A DNA stretch of 27,053 nt, taken from positions 17,700 to 44,752 of the forward strand of contig MHXC01000033.1 of assembly GCA_001824325.1 (NCBI GenBank). The letters are read 5' to 3'. Below, in pieces: positions 4,304-27,053 of this stretch. The notes under the pieces are model-generated. The model searched no databases, was not told the DNA's origin, and worked only from the letters and a program-made list of their open reading frames with translations. Within the stretch, counting starts at the first letter, position 1, and every line of letters starts with the position of its first letter. Origin of the DNA: Parcubacteria group bacterium RIFCSPHIGHO2_01_FULL_47_10b. Lineage in GTDB: Bacteria; Patescibacteriota; Minisyncoccia; 2-01-FULL-47-10. A program made the translations under genes and the position numbers.

Positions 4304-5053
4304 ATGGCAACGCAATGGCCCAATAAATCAGAAAGGCCACAGAAGGCACGTAAAACCCAGCAACTTGCCGGCAAAGTTGCCGTTATTACCGGTGCCAGCC
4401 GCGGACTCGGGTTGGAGTTGGCGCGCGAGTTCGTGCGTCAGGGCGCACGGGTCGTTATGAGCGATATCGCGCATGACGAGCTGCACCGTGTGGCGGCGGA
4501 GCTCGGCGCACAAGCATATATCGCTGATGTCACAAACGAGCAGGCGATGTTTGAACTAGCTGCGTTTACGAAGCGCACATTCGGTTCGCTTGATCTGTGG
4601 GTAAATAACGCGGGGCTGTGGATGCCGCATTGCCCTATTGAGCAGATGTCGCTGGACCGCGTGCATCGCATGGTGGAGGTGAACCTATTTGGTATTATTC
4701 ATGGCGCTCGGGCTGCGCTGGCCGTGATGAAGCCGGTGCGCACTGGCATTATTATCAATATTTTATCAACAAGCGCATTGATCGGCCGCCCGGGATCATC
4801 GGGATACTGCGCGAGTAAATGCGCAGCAATGGGATTTTGCAAGTCGCTTGCGTTAGAAGTGGCAGACGATGGCATCGTTGTATACAACATCTACCCCGAA
4901 GGCATGCAAACAAAGCTATTCGATGAGCAGCGGCCCCAGGACTATACAGACTATCTCGACCCGCGGGTTGTTGCGATGAAAATTATGAAAAATCTAAGCG
5001 CGAAAAAGCCGAAAGGGGAGTTTGTGATACGGAGGGCAAAACAGAAATATTGA
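4304..5053 (+). CDS. Short-chain dehydrogenase/reductase (SDR)
   Basis: This NAD(P)-dependent oxidoreductase of the classical SDR type has the cofactor motif TGASRGLG near residue 30, the NNAG motif, a catalytic Ser in LSTSALIG and the YCASK catalytic Tyr/Lys. It is 249 residues long, a usual length. The open frame begins at 4181 inside the preceding gene, but homology begins just after the ATG at 4304. VVMSDIAHDE places an Asp at the end of beta-strand 2, which favours NAD over NADP. The substrate is unknown. Confidence 0.88.
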   Translation: MATQWPNKSERPQKARKTQQLAGKVAVITGASRGLGLELAREFVRQGARVVMSDIAHDELHRVAAELGAQAYIADVTNEQAMFELAAFTKRTFGSLDLWVNNAGLWMPHCPIEQMSLDRVHRMVEVNLFGIIHGARAALAVMKPVRTGIIINILSTSALIGRPGSSGYCASKCAAMGFCKSLALEVADDGIVVYNIYPEGMQTKLFDEQRPQDYTDYLDPRVVAMKIMKNLSAKKPKGEFVIRRAKQKY

Positions 5054-23421: not shown

Positions 23422-24874
23422 GGAAGGGGAGTGAAATAGACTGTGAAACTGTATACCTACAACAAGTCGGAGCCCAAGATTCGTTCTGGGTGACGGCGTG
23501 CCTTTTGCAAAATGAGCCAACGACTTTTAGGGCATTCCAAGTCTAAGCCGTGACAAAACGGCGGAGGCGTAGGGAAACCGAGTATGAATAGTGCGTCTAG
23601 GAATGTTTTAAAGACCCGAAGCCAGGCGATCCATCCATGAGCAGGGTGAGTGCTGGGTAACACCAGCAGGAGGCCCGAACCAGTTGATCGTGCAATATCA
23701 TTGGATGACTTGTGGATAGTGGTGAAAAGTCAATCGCGCCTGGGAATAGCTGGTTCTCTCCGAAACAGCTTTGCGGCTGGCGTTGTGTGAATCACTCCGG
23801 AGGTAGAGCACTGACTAACGGAAGGTGGCCAATGGCCTACTTTTGTTTATCAAACTCCGAATACCGGAAGTGTATGCACAGCAGTTAGACTACGGGGGCT
23901 AAGCTCCGTGGTCGTGAGGTTAATAGGCCAGACCATCGCTTAAGGTCCCAAAATCTATACTAAGTGGGAAAGGAGGTGGAATTTCTCCGACATCTGGGAG
24001 GTTGGCTTAGAAGCAGCCATCCTTTAAAGAGTGCGTAATAGCTCACCAGCCAAGAGATTTTGCGCCGAAAATGTAACGGGGCTAAGTATAGTACCGAAGG
24101 CATGGGTGCGTGTTGTGCTTCGGCATAACATGCGCGGTAGGAGAGCGTTCGCATTGCGCTGAAGCCGGACCCGCGAGGGCCGGTCGAGCGATGTGAAGTG
24201 AGAATGTTGGTACGAGTAACCACAAGGGAAGTAAAATCCTTCCCCGCCGAAAGTCCAAGGTTTCCATGGCAATGGCGATCATCCATGGGTTAGTCGGTCC
24301 TAAGGTGAACCCGAACGGGGTAGCTGATGGACAGCAGGTTAATATTCCTGCACCACTTGTGTATGCGAAGGAGCGACGCATGTTAGTAGTGTGTGCCTCT
24401 TATCGGATTGAGGTCCGGTGTATAGGGAGGAAGCGTTGGAAAATCCGCGCTTCTGTGCTTCGAGCACGACTCCGAGTGCATCGGGGACGTTCCTGCTTGC
24501 AGGAGCAAACGCACATGAGCAATGGGCCTAGAAAAACTTCTAAGCATAATACACAGGTGACCGTACCGCAAAACCGAAACAGGTGGACAGGTCGAGTAGA
24601 CCAAGGCGAACGAGTGAAAGCTGGATAAGGAACTCGGCAAAAAAGCGGCCGTAACTTTGGGATAAGGCCTGCCTGGTGCGTGCTTGCACGTGCTGGGCCG
24701 CAGCTAAAGATTTCAAGCGACTGTTTATCAAAAACACAGGTCCCTGCTAACTCGTAAGAGGATGTATAGGGGCTGACGCCTGACCAGTGCCGAAAGGTTA
24801 AGAAACGCCGGTGCATTGTGATTTATCATGGTGTGCTGGAGTTCGAAGCCCCGGTAAACGTCAGCGATAACTAT

Positions 24875-25198
24875 AAACAACATTGTAGTTACAAAACTTG
24901 GCTATATGCTGGGATCTCCCACGTATCCTGTATTGGCAACGATACCGGTGGGGACAATCAGCAGGGAAGTCACGGTTTCGTGAAGGCGCGCATAGTGTGC
25001 GTTGCACGTGTTGTGACCCCTCAGAGACTATACGCCGAGCCCTTCTGTAATAATTGCGATAACCGTCGTTATGCAAGGGATGATATAGTCCGACCCTTAT
25101 GGCGACATAAGGAGACTGACAGAAATGTCCAGTCCGTGCGAGCATGCCTGACAGCGCAATTTTTGGCGCAGAAGGTATGTTGCATAGTAACAAACGTG
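24875..25198 (+). ncRNA. Group I intron 1 (after U1917, E. coli numbering)
   Basis: A 324-nt intron. The internal guide GTAGTTA (24885-24891) pairs with the exon end TAACTAT with a U-G wobble at the splice site. The P7 strands are GACTATA (25026-25032) and TATAGTC (25084-25090). The intron ends with G at 25198, and the exon resumes with AATCGTTCTAAGGT, restoring helix 69. No ORF is credible inside. Confidence 0.9.
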
Positions 25199-25212
25199 AA
25201 TCGTTCTAAGGT
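25199..25212 (+). rRNA. 23S mini-exon of 14 nt (positions 1918-1931)
   Basis: AATCGTTCTAAGGT corresponds to E. coli AACGGTCCTAAGGT. The TCGTT pairs with AGCGA of the previous exon to close helix 69, a compensated change relative to E. coli. Confidence 0.9.
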
Positions 25213-26023
25213 AAAAAGTGCCCAGGAATGCACTGCTGCCTTAGTAAAATCTGGCTATATGCTGGAAACTCCGGAGAATCTGGTGTTACGCAACGTGTTT
25301 GGAAAGTGTATGGAACTATGGTAGAATGATACAATATGACCAAACCATTACGTGAAAAAACAACCAGTGTGTACGCTTTAGGGCGTGCGCCGGACAATCA
25401 GCAGGAAAGATTTCGATCTCCGCTGAATTTGCGATGGCTTGATAATATTCCATCATCAATCGGATATTATTTAGCTGGATTTGCAGATGGCGAAGGAAGT
25501 TTTACCGCTTCATTGAGAAAGAAACGTGATTACAAAAATGAATGGCAGATATCTCTGGCATTCAATGTTGCTCAACGCGATGTAAGTACGCTTAAATTAT
25601 TTAAGCAGCACTTGAAGTGCGGGCGACTACAATGTCGAAGTGATGGTGTCCACTACTTTGTAGTGGGGGATTATCCCTCGCTACAGAACCACGTAGTCCC
25701 ATTTTTCGACAGATATCAAATTCTTTCAGAAAATAAGCGTAAGAACTTTCTAATCTTCAAAAAGATTACTTCCCTTGTCTACCAAAAGAAACATTTAACT
25801 CACAACGGGATGAAGACAGTTTTAGAATTACGAGAGGAGTTAAATAAAGGTAAGGGTAGAAAAAGAAAGTATTTTATCGGAGACGTGATCGAAGAATCCT
25901 CAACGACCACACGCCGGACTCGTTCTATCGAACGAGAAGATATGGTCTGAGCTCTATGGTGACATAGAGAGTAAGACGGAAACGAATCTTACCACTTCAA
26001 ACATTGAAGTAGTAACAAATCTA
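25213..26023 (+). ncRNA. Group I intron 2 (after U1931) with endonuclease ORF
   Basis: An 811-nt intron. The guide GCCTTAG (25238-25244) pairs with CTAAGGT of the mini-exon with a G-U wobble at the splice site. Core elements include GGCTATATGCTGG near 25253, GGACAATCAGCAGG (25392-25405), and P7 strands GACCA (25905-25909) and TGGTC (25943-25947), a compensated version of GACTA/TAGTC in its neighbours. The last intron base by exon alignment is A (26023), not the usual G. Confidence 0.87.
25336..25950 (+). CDS. LAGLIDADG homing endonuclease encoded in intron 2
   Basis: The 204-residue protein has one LAGLIDADG motif (YYLAGFADGEGSF, near residues 44-56), so it would act as a homodimer. The fold continues with WQISLAFNVAQRDVSTLKLF and ends in a basic region. 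Such enzymes cut intronless copies of the rDNA site and so spread the intron. Unusually, the frame overlaps ribozyme core at both ends: residues APDNQQ come from the GGACAATCAGCAGG element, and the final residues and stop come from both P7 strands. The ATG at 25336 has no ribosome site. The conserved LAGLIDADG core starts about 40 codons in, so a later start is possible. Confidence 0.85.
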   Translation: MTKPLREKTTSVYALGRAPDNQQERFRSPLNLRWLDNIPSSIGYYLAGFADGEGSFTASLRKKRDYKNEWQISLAFNVAQRDVSTLKLFKQHLKCGRLQCRSDGVHYFVVGDYPSLQNHVVPFFDRYQILSENKRKNFLIFKKITSLVYQKKHLTHNGMKTVLELREELNKGKGRKRKYFIGDVIEESSTTTRRTRSIEREDMV

Positions 26024-26035
26024 AGCGAAATTCCT
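26024..26035 (+). rRNA. 23S mini-exon of 12 nt (positions 1932-1943)
   Basis: AGCGAAATTCCT is identical to the E. coli sequence at 1932-1943. Confidence 0.88.
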
Positions 26036-26327
26036 AGAAACCGACTGGGACCCTCAATGGGTAACCATGAGCGGAAAACTTGGCTATATGCTGGGAACTC
26101 CCGTGTATCTACTACTGGAAACGGTAGTAGTGGGGACAATCAGCAGGGAAGTTCTGTCTTCTATCTAAAGAATCAGAACCCCTCAACGACTACACGCCAG
26201 GATCCTTATATAATAAGGAATGTGATATAGTCTGAACTGCATGGCGACATGCAGAGTCTGGCTCGCGCTAGGCCGCCTCATTATATGAGGTCAGTTCAGC
26301 GAGTTGCTGAACGAAAGTAACAGTTTG
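26036..26327 (+). ncRNA. Group I intron 3 (after U1943)
   Basis: A 292-nt intron with P7 strands GACTA (26188-26192) and TAGTC (26228-26232). It shares two 22-nt core blocks with intron 1 (26075-26096 and 26131-26152). The intron ends with G at 26327. A possible guide, GGGA (26047-26050), gives only a 4-bp P1 with TCCT of the exon, so the 5' site is less firm than the others. No ORF. Confidence 0.83.
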
Positions 26328-26335
26328 TGTCGGGT
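26328..26335 (+). rRNA. 23S micro-exon of 8 nt (positions 1944-1951)
   Basis: TGTCGGGT is identical to E. coli 1944-1951. It lies between the terminal G of intron 3 and the start of intron 4. Confidence 0.87.
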
Positions 26336-26623
26336 AAGCCTGTCGGGGCAAGCCCGTAGGTGGCTTATAACGGTGAAGCCGTCAGTTATTATGATGTTTG
26401 GAAAATGTATGGTATAATGACTCGGTAATACCGTGGGAAGTCGTGTTACGCACAGTAACATTGACCCCGTAACGACTTAACGTAATCGTTAGGTAGCGAA
26501 CAGAAATGGCAGTGAGTATATCGCTACAATACGCCGCCCAGTATGTGCAATAGTGATAAACGCACAACAACACATACTGAAGATATAGTCTGTGCCGCTG
26601 GAAACAGCGGAGTAGAGACCACG
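26336..26623 (+). ncRNA. Group I intron 4 (after U1951)
   Basis: A 288-nt intron. The guide GCCCG (26352-26356) pairs with CGGGT at the exon end with a G-U wobble. The P7 strands appear to be GACT (26474-26477) and AGTC (26587-26590) within AAGATATAGTC. It ends with G at 26623, and the exon resumes AAGTTCCGAC as in E. coli 1952. Its 5' half lacks the core block shared by introns 1-3, so it is a different lineage or subgroup. Confidence 0.83.
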
Positions 26624-27053
26624 AAGTTCCGACGCGCATGAAAGGCGTAACGACTTGAAAACTGTCTCATCCAGCTGCTCGGTGAAAATCCAATTGTCAG
26701 TGAAGATGCTGACTACTCGCAGTTAGACGGAAAGACCCCAGGAGCTTCACTGTAAGCTGCTATTGGGCCTCATGTTTGCATGCGTAGCATAGTGGGGAGA
26801 CTTTGAAGGTTCCATTCTGGTGGAACTGGAGTCGCCAATGAAATACCCATCTTGTGATTGTGTTGTCCTAACCTCGTTCGTGTGAAAAGCACAACAGGAA
26901 CAGTGGCAGCCTGGCAGTTTGAGTGGGGCGCTCTTCTCCTAAAGAGTAACGGAGAAGTCTCAAGGTCGGCTAGCTACGGATGGAAATCGTAGCGATAGTG
27001 CAAAGGCATAAGCCGGCTTTACTGCAAGACCTACAAGTCGCGCAGTTGCGAAA

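Follow-up and report, generated by a model that had tools for sequence, protein, structure and literature searches.

Four putative group I introns within 34 nucleotides of a Parcubacteria 23S rRNA gene, with exons of 14, 12 and 8 nucleotides between them

The stretch of DNA analysed here (27,053 nt from Parcubacteria group bacterium RIFCSPHIGHO2_01_FULL_47_10b, hereafter the window) ends within a 23S ribosomal RNA (rRNA) gene (RF02541), at a run of N that marks a scaffold gap (window 27053; positions 4755-4779 of stretch L002), and the remainder of the gene lies beyond the window on the same scaffold, in L002. Within the window this gene is broken after U1917, U1931, U1943 and U1951 (Escherichia coli numbering) by inserts of 324, 811, 292 and 288 nt, here called introns 1 to 4, at sites L1917, L1931, L1943 and L1951. 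The numbering was verified on E. coli rrlH, where AACTAT ends at 1917, AAATTCCT at 1943 and TGTCGGGT at 1951. The exons left between the inserts measure 14, 12 and 8 nt and, when joined, restore the 34 nt of E. coli 1917-1951 exactly, so that the boundaries drawn in the initial annotation are right to the base. The features are the following.

24868..24891, + strand: P1 of intron 1, exon UAACUAU (24868-24874) with guide GUAGUUA (24885-24891), predicted fold
24875..25198, + strand: intron 1, group I, L1917, ending in G (RF00028, 67.4 bits)
25199..25212, + strand: 14-nt exon AATCGTTCTAAGGT, E. coli 1918-1931, containing the 3' strand of helix 69 (H69)
25206..25244, + strand: P1 of intron 2, exon CUAAGGU (25206-25212) with guide GCCUUAG (25238-25244), predicted fold
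25213..26023, + strand: intron 2, group I, L1931, with a homing endonuclease gene and a final A instead of G (RF00028, 31.2 bits; bridging open reading frame, ORF)
26024..26035, + strand: 12-nt exon AGCGAAATTCCT, E. coli 1932-1943
26032..26050, + strand: P1 of intron 3, UCCU·AG with CUGGGA, predicted fold, compensated in a relative (L034)
26036..26327, + strand: intron 3, group I, L1943, ending in G (RF00028, 77.6 bits)
26328..26335, + strand: 8-nt exon TGTCGGGT, E. coli 1944-1951, containing the 5' strand of helix 71 (H71; 26329-26333)
26336..26623, + strand: intron 4, group I, IA-like, L1951, ending in G (RF00028, 43.5 bits)
26629..26633, + strand: 3' strand of H71, CCGAC, in the downstream exon

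The initial annotation had proposed, from the letters, that four group I introns lie between 1917 and 1951, and had named a covariance-model (CM) search as a check. In this search RF00028 matches all four inserts, with E-values of 1.8e-16, 1.3e-5, 1.6e-19 and 2.7e-9 for introns 1 to 4 (all at E ≤ 1.3e-5), and a group I core is thus found in each, above the Rfam gathering score of 50 bits in introns 1 and 3 and below it in the other two. The P7 strands announced for every insert are read directly in introns 1 and 3 (GACTA/TAGTC) and in intron 2 (GACCA/TGGTC), and through the CM alignment in intron 4. Moreover, the 5' exon ends in U before all four introns, and a P1 with a U-G pair is present in the folds of introns 1-3 and, for intron 4, in a duplex search. 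The joined exons are predicted to fold with H69 closed, as had been claimed, and with H71 closed as well. Introns 1, 3 and 4 leave no room for a full endonuclease gene.

IA-type introns are marked by extra hairpins between the P7 5' strand and P3'. Intron 4 has an additional stretch at this place (an insert in the CM alignment), with hairpins there in the predicted fold; introns 1-3 are of one core kind and intron 4 appears to be of a different, IA-like kind, the subgroup name being used informally. The array is not a product of chance, given four CM matches, an exact rebuilding of 34 nt and the occupation of these four sites by introns in relatives as well. With a probability of about 0.85 these are four working group I introns; anatomy, pairings and covariation are observed, and splicing is what they point to. 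The scores of introns 2 and 4, which fall short of the gathering score, weigh against this, as do several points on the guides, on intron 2 and on the endonuclease given below; the low score of intron 2 may arise because the match skips its ORF.

For comparison with relatives, intron sites were mapped in 151 loci. A 585-nt exon query matched at least 133 of 188 genomes of the class (a repeat search of 43 of these 188 served to complete the result rows) and at least 35, 57 and 48 of 40, 70 and 58 RF00028-positive genomes of a phylum sample. In the same sample 202 of 379 genomes gave no RF00028 match under strict filters with at most five candidates scored each, and of these 202 the exon query covered those that also belonged to the 188. 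Only a few candidates were scored per genome in these searches, and counts are among the matches listed. For mapping, 130 stretches were taken, mostly for their splits, most exon-query loci in the 188 genomes being best matches without an insert; since the loci were mostly chosen for splits, the fractions below are not population rates. The 151 loci omit scores below 40 (L154 was kept by name), repeats of the window's own locus, E. coli, a Chitinophagales match and the other loci of the window's genome; G142, G171 and G298 are among a few genomes counted twice, and the split of L083 was set by hand around the 8-nt exon TGTCTGGT.

All four sites are filled in one of the 151 loci, the window, and three introns are present in seven, as L1917, L1931 and L1951 in five and as L1917, L1943 and L1951 in two (genomes G317 and G005). 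L1931 is the commonest intron site in the sample (79 introns), so only L1943, occupied in 8/151 loci, is rare among the four sites of the window. The window is therefore the densest case in the sample, and it extends a known kind, the site-specific group I introns of rRNA in the Candidate Phyla Radiation (CPR). Membership of the host in the CPR agrees with the small genomes and intron-rich rRNA that it and its relatives show. The view that its 8-nt exon has no parallel did not hold: in G317 and G005 the corresponding exon is likewise 8 nt long (TGTCTGGT; in G005 the 3' end of the L1951 intron falls within a run of N), and in G394 (locus L120) introns at L1917 and L1923 enclose a 6-nt exon, AACGGT, which by hand reading can pair along its whole length with the guide of the L1923 intron. 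A similar pair of L1917 and L1923 introns obtained by a looser spliced alignment of the insert of G060 (L041) was rejected as spurious, the first mapping giving one 552-nt insert. A pattern scan of 84,980 genomes (exact exon letters, 251-311 nt) gave a lone L1943 match in a metagenome-assembled genome of the Chitinophagales, which was set aside as chance, with no convincing 23S exons beside it.

The 8-nt exon is where the crowding is most severe. Its GUCGG is the 5' strand of H71; the complementary CCGAC belongs to the exon that follows, and the two strands covary across genomes (TGTCTGGT with CAGAC, TGTCGTGT with ACGAC, TGTGGGGT with CCCAC); because they change together, the exon is taken to be under selection as rRNA. 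Three guides concern this exon and its partner.

26041..26045, + strand: P10 guide of intron 3, CCGAC, the same letters as the H71 3' strand, pairing with nt 2-6 of the exon (duplex energy against shuffles)
26342..26349, + strand: P10 guide of intron 4, GUCGGGGC, mimicking the H71 5' strand and pairing with the 3' exon GUUCCGAC (26626-26633; duplex energy)
26352..26356, + strand: guide GCCCG of intron 4, forming P1 with exon CGGGU (26331-26335), compensated in relatives

The P10 duplex of intron 3 is calculated at -9.0 kcal/mol compared with -3.7 in shuffles (p=0.023), and that of intron 4, in which eight bases of the downstream exon are paired, at -13.7 compared with -5.4 kcal/mol (p=0.003). 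As the initial annotation had stated, the exon is shared: P1 of intron 4 takes five of its bases, CGGGU (nt 4-8), P10 of intron 3 takes GUCGG (nt 2-6), and three bases (26331-26333) are common to both. By contrast with this overlap, P1 and P10 do not overlap on the 14-nt and 12-nt exons (read by hand). P1 at L1951 is compensated in relatives, since all four that have CAGGU carry the guide GCCUG and, of four with CUGGU, three carry GCCAG and one GCUAG, which still pairs; at L1943, UCCU/GGGA in the window becomes ACCU/GGGU in L034. A 5-bp guide is present in 24/28 L1951 introns, with a mean P10 energy of -7.3 compared with -2.9 kcal/mol in shuffles, and P10 reaches p≤0.05 in 14 of these 24. A guide that holds the 3' exon must resemble the natural partner of that exon, and hence introns 3 and 4, which flank the 8-nt exon, each copy one strand of H71 in a predicted guide.

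Some observations speak against so simple a picture. Among the L1943 introns only the P10 of the window beats its shuffles (1/6), and guides were taken as first matches, which makes them doubtful for L096 and L098. For intron 4, predicted folds of the 5' end alone, of the 5' end with the 8-nt exon and of the whole intron all bury the guide in an internal hairpin, and P1 does not form. Furthermore, CCGAC of intron 3 is able to pair with GUCGG of intron 4 (-9.0 kcal/mol), which complicates any scheme of order.

The overlap by three bases implies that P10 of intron 3 and P1 of intron 4 can never both be complete at once. The initial annotation had suggested that the order of splicing may therefore be forced, and this is not supported: the two pairings act in different steps and exclude each other only in time. 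The calculated energies of the isolated duplexes are close (-9.0 for P10 of intron 3, -7.9 for P1 of intron 4 and -9.3 kcal/mol for H71). If intron 3 left first, its P10 would have no rival in H71; after an exit of intron 4, H71 could capture the 8-nt exon from intron 3, and for this reason the order with intron 3 first would be the easiest. Removal of intron 3 before intron 4 is accordingly proposed only tentatively, at slightly less than even odds. In the proposed mechanism, four separate group I introns would occupy four homing sites in a highly conserved 23S stretch, each would excise itself from the precursor with its P1 paired to the preceding exon, and the 8-nt exon would have three competing partners, namely P10 of intron 3, P1 of intron 4 and the true downstream strand of H71. 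The copies of H71 strands serving as P10 guides in the flanking introns would form stand-in helices that replace H71 until splicing is done. Such an arrangement would be a natural limit case of self-splicing, in which two ribozymes share bases of one 8-nt exon and this exon sits in an essential gene of which the genome yielded one copy; exon skipping, the order of splicing and the rivalry between guides and a ribosomal helix become directly testable in vitro.

A different origin, in which local copying within the array, and not separate homing, produced the introns from one another, is unlikely but is the alternative that survives best. A stretch of 78 nt is 85% alike in introns 1 (24893-24970) and 3 (26075-26152), a match better than any reported in 382 other genomes of the class (two candidates scored per genome), and an 18-nt motif is common to introns 2 and 4. 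However, summed BLAST bits are higher between intron 1 and the L1917 intron of L113 (121) and between intron 3 and the L1943 intron of L034 (137) than between introns 1 and 3 (88), intron 4 is of a different kind, and the shared 78 nt would also be explained by gene conversion between neighbours. A block tree of the cores, weakly supported, grouped intron 3 with introns of three sites, also at odds with local copying; it was discarded as too weak to use. Separate homing thus remains preferred, and gene conversion within the array may account for the likeness of introns 1 and 3.

The 18-nt motif has a sequence close to TGTTTGGAAAATGTATGG and is found in the window at 25296-25313 and 26395-26412, and in L002 at 4920 and 5915, within two inserts further downstream. 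Its expected number in the 13-kb locus is 0.00, and its exact form occurs in 7/173 loci, all of the window's own genome. As a promoter, TGTTTGGAAAATGTATGG was rejected, the reversed-pattern control giving three matches in the genome compared with five; since the control is near the real count, what stands out is solely the clustering of the motif in the 23S gene. The motif could be a promoter-like element that these introns have in common, or the remnant of an exchange between unlike introns.

It is improbable, although somewhat less so than the remaining alternatives, that some introns are degenerate and no longer splice, in a gene that is dying or is backed by a further 23S copy missing from the assembled contigs. 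The RF00028 scores of introns 2 and 4 are low. Intron 2, wherever its ends are placed so as to give a normal rRNA, also lacks the terminal G with which introns 1, 3 and 4 end, its last base being A; this is a point against four working introns. In an earlier locus set (before the last batch of stretches, scores of at least 35), terminal G was found in 28/28 introns at L1951, 6/6 at L1943 and 37/41 at L1917, the doubtful split of L041 being one of the four exceptions. At L1931, however, 43/68 introns end in G, 24/68 in A and 1/68 in T. Thirteen of the 24 that end in A start with AG and can be read with G by a two-base shift, and the other 11, that of the window among them, cannot be so re-read (hand counts). 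Moreover, one Coxiella element lacks the canonical terminal G according to the title of Raghavan 2007, which calls both introns self-splicing, and on account of this exception terminal G is not treated here as defining for group I.

The state of the gene bears on the same question. The genome (1.01 Mb, 66 contigs, scaffolded) is 92.8% complete and is the sole representative of its order in the collection compared, and the first two kb of the 23S gene are present once in its assembly; at this completeness a second copy is conceivable. Against decay, the exons are kept, H69 and H71 close, and the exons of domain V downstream, the peptidyl-transferase region included, align closely to E. coli. 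If the copy is single, survival of the cell requires the removal of every intron, and the cell must probably splice out all four correctly to obtain working ribosomes.

It is very improbable that the inserts are excised without religation, leaving a fragmented rRNA as with the intervening sequences (IVS) of bacterial 23S genes. In the parts consulted, a CPR survey considers that, at two other sites, short 23S inserts are in many cases probably IVS (PMC11270868), but in the window all four inserts have a group I core, P1 and P10 guides surround the 8-nt exon, and a fragmented rRNA would leave two loose pieces, one of 12 nt and one of 8 nt that belongs to H71. The slightest chance is left to an assembly error merging introns of several strains, since despite a metagenome-like scaffold with a run of N nearby, 24800-26700 is free of N, the exons are exact and ordered, and three-intron arrays occur in other genomes.

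The array has a single endonuclease gene, in intron 2.

25299..25327, + strand: promoter-like TTGGAA-17-TAGAAT just before the endonuclease ORF (weak: six such in the region, 3.6 expected)
25336..25950, + strand: predicted LAGLIDADG_1 homing endonuclease with a single motif, 204 aa (Pfam PF00961)

The product scores 61.9 bits with PF00961 (cut-off 23.1), its structurally solved relatives include I-SmaMI, and the stop codon follows directly after the P7 3' strand of intron 2. In a tree of 70 intron ORFs the types group by site (8 changes compared with 31.9 with shuffled labels), and 30/33 ORFs from L1931 form one clade (support 98/97). The remaining three (from the window, L113 and L118) fall among the L1917 types. 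In all three arrays the L1917 intron has no such ORF, and 6/33 L1931 ORFs are in arrays of this kind (Fisher p 0.0037, computed after the pattern was seen). A fourth misfit is an L1923-type ORF in the L1917 intron of G394 (100/99), whose neighbouring L1923 intron has none; thus all four misplaced endonucleases of the 70-row tree are in arrays in which the neighbour at the matching site is without such a gene. Forcing the ORF of the window to join the 30 L1931 types gave a p-AU of 0.033 (one long row, L098_L1951, dropped). The support of the placement is modest (83/80, 80/63) and the tests are post hoc, which weighs on the other side; with modest support, then, the endonuclease of intron 2 appears to be of L1917 type.

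Among 19 arrays with introns at L1917 and L1931, an open frame (between stops, at least 120 codons) is found in the first intron in nine, in the second in six, in both in none and in neither in four (hypergeometric 0.0077). Arrays with an L1951 or L1943 intron can carry two endonuclease ORFs (L077, L078, L083, L098, L121), hence one enzyme per array is no rule, and in Synechococcus sp. C9 and Navicula, according to the parts of the sources consulted, both the L1917 and the L1931 intron carry an endonuclease, which is a further point against a wider rule. It is possible, although the balance tips slightly to the contrary, that the endonuclease of intron 2 is aimed at the L1917 site. A single endonuclease gene of L1917 type within the L1931 intron would then cut an intron-free allele at the L1917 site, and repair would carry over the four introns as one unit. 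The general proposition that in crowded rRNA arrays the endonuclease gene moves between neighbours, one enzyme drives the array and P10 stand-ins set the order of splicing is speculative and unlikely to hold as a whole. Should neighbouring introns indeed exchange endonuclease types, the unit of evolution may be the whole array and not the single intron.

The closest known parallel, already drawn in the initial annotation, is the 23S gene of Coxiella burnetii, where introns at L1917 and L1951 lie around a 34-bp exon, in agreement with the title of Raghavan 2007. As far as the sources were consulted, these introns belong to subgroups IB2 and IA3 and show exon skipping (PMC10136302), that at L1917 being IB2 (PMC11019260); the window shares with them the outer two sites, apparently the presence of two core kinds, and one element without terminal G. 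By analogy, introns 1 and 4 may match this IB2/IA3 pattern. The window differs in having two more introns that split the 34-nt exon, and in that its G-less element is at L1931, which is not a Coxiella site. Within the CPR, the available part of Tsurumaki 2024 (PMC11270868) reports inserts at 1917, 1931 and 1952, LAGLIDADG_1 genes, inserts in 82% of 23S genes, up to 16 per gene, and ectopic moves between sites; in that part it names no 1943 site, no exon lengths and no swap of endonucleases between neighbours of an array. Introns at L1917 and L1931 separated by the same 14-nt exon are described, in the portions consulted, for Synechococcus sp. C9 (L1917, L1931 and L2593; PMC1995217) and for the plastid of the diatom Navicula vanseea (PMC11019260); unlike the window, both have an endonuclease in each of the two introns, and no L1943 or L1951 intron is named there. 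The tandem IA2 introns of Twort orf142 likewise enclose a short exon and show exon skipping, but this exon of 23 nt is longer than those of the window and the gene is a phage protein gene (PMC10136302, consulted in part). Among the literature titles none concerned an L1943 intron or four introns in this 23S stretch, and in the literature covered, partly at the level of titles, the following were not met: so dense an array, exons of 8 or 6 nt, an intron at L1943, a frequent final A at L1931, and signs of endonuclease genes moving between neighbours of one array.

Five more inserts interrupt the same 23S gene further downstream (L002:4845-8350), after U2449, U2546, base 2575, U2584 and U2656, with lengths of 917, 856, 287, 875 and 365 nt; they are separated by exons of 97, 29, 9 and 71 nt, the 9-nt exon being GAGCTGGGT (2576-2584). 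These inserts had escaped the initial annotation, as had the final A of intron 2 and the apparent L1917 type of its endonuclease. With RF00028, the insert at 2575 scores 64.9 bits, above the cut-off, those at 2656 (39 bits, E 4e-7) and 2449 (27.2 bits, E 0.0014) are below it, that at 2584 reaches only E 0.82, and for that at 2546 no match was reported. LAGLIDADG_2 genes lie within the inserts at 2449, 2546 and 2584. The nine 23S inserts total 5015 nt, and the whole gene is thus close to, and not past, the maximum of insertion load given in the consulted part of the CPR survey, in which the largest insert total is 5,750 bp and the most inserts per gene 16 (PMC11270868). Outside the 23S gene, three further RF00028 matches are present in the genome (L150, L146 and L151, on contigs C65, C43 and C42), of which one adjoins a 16S rRNA match and two are near tRNA genes.

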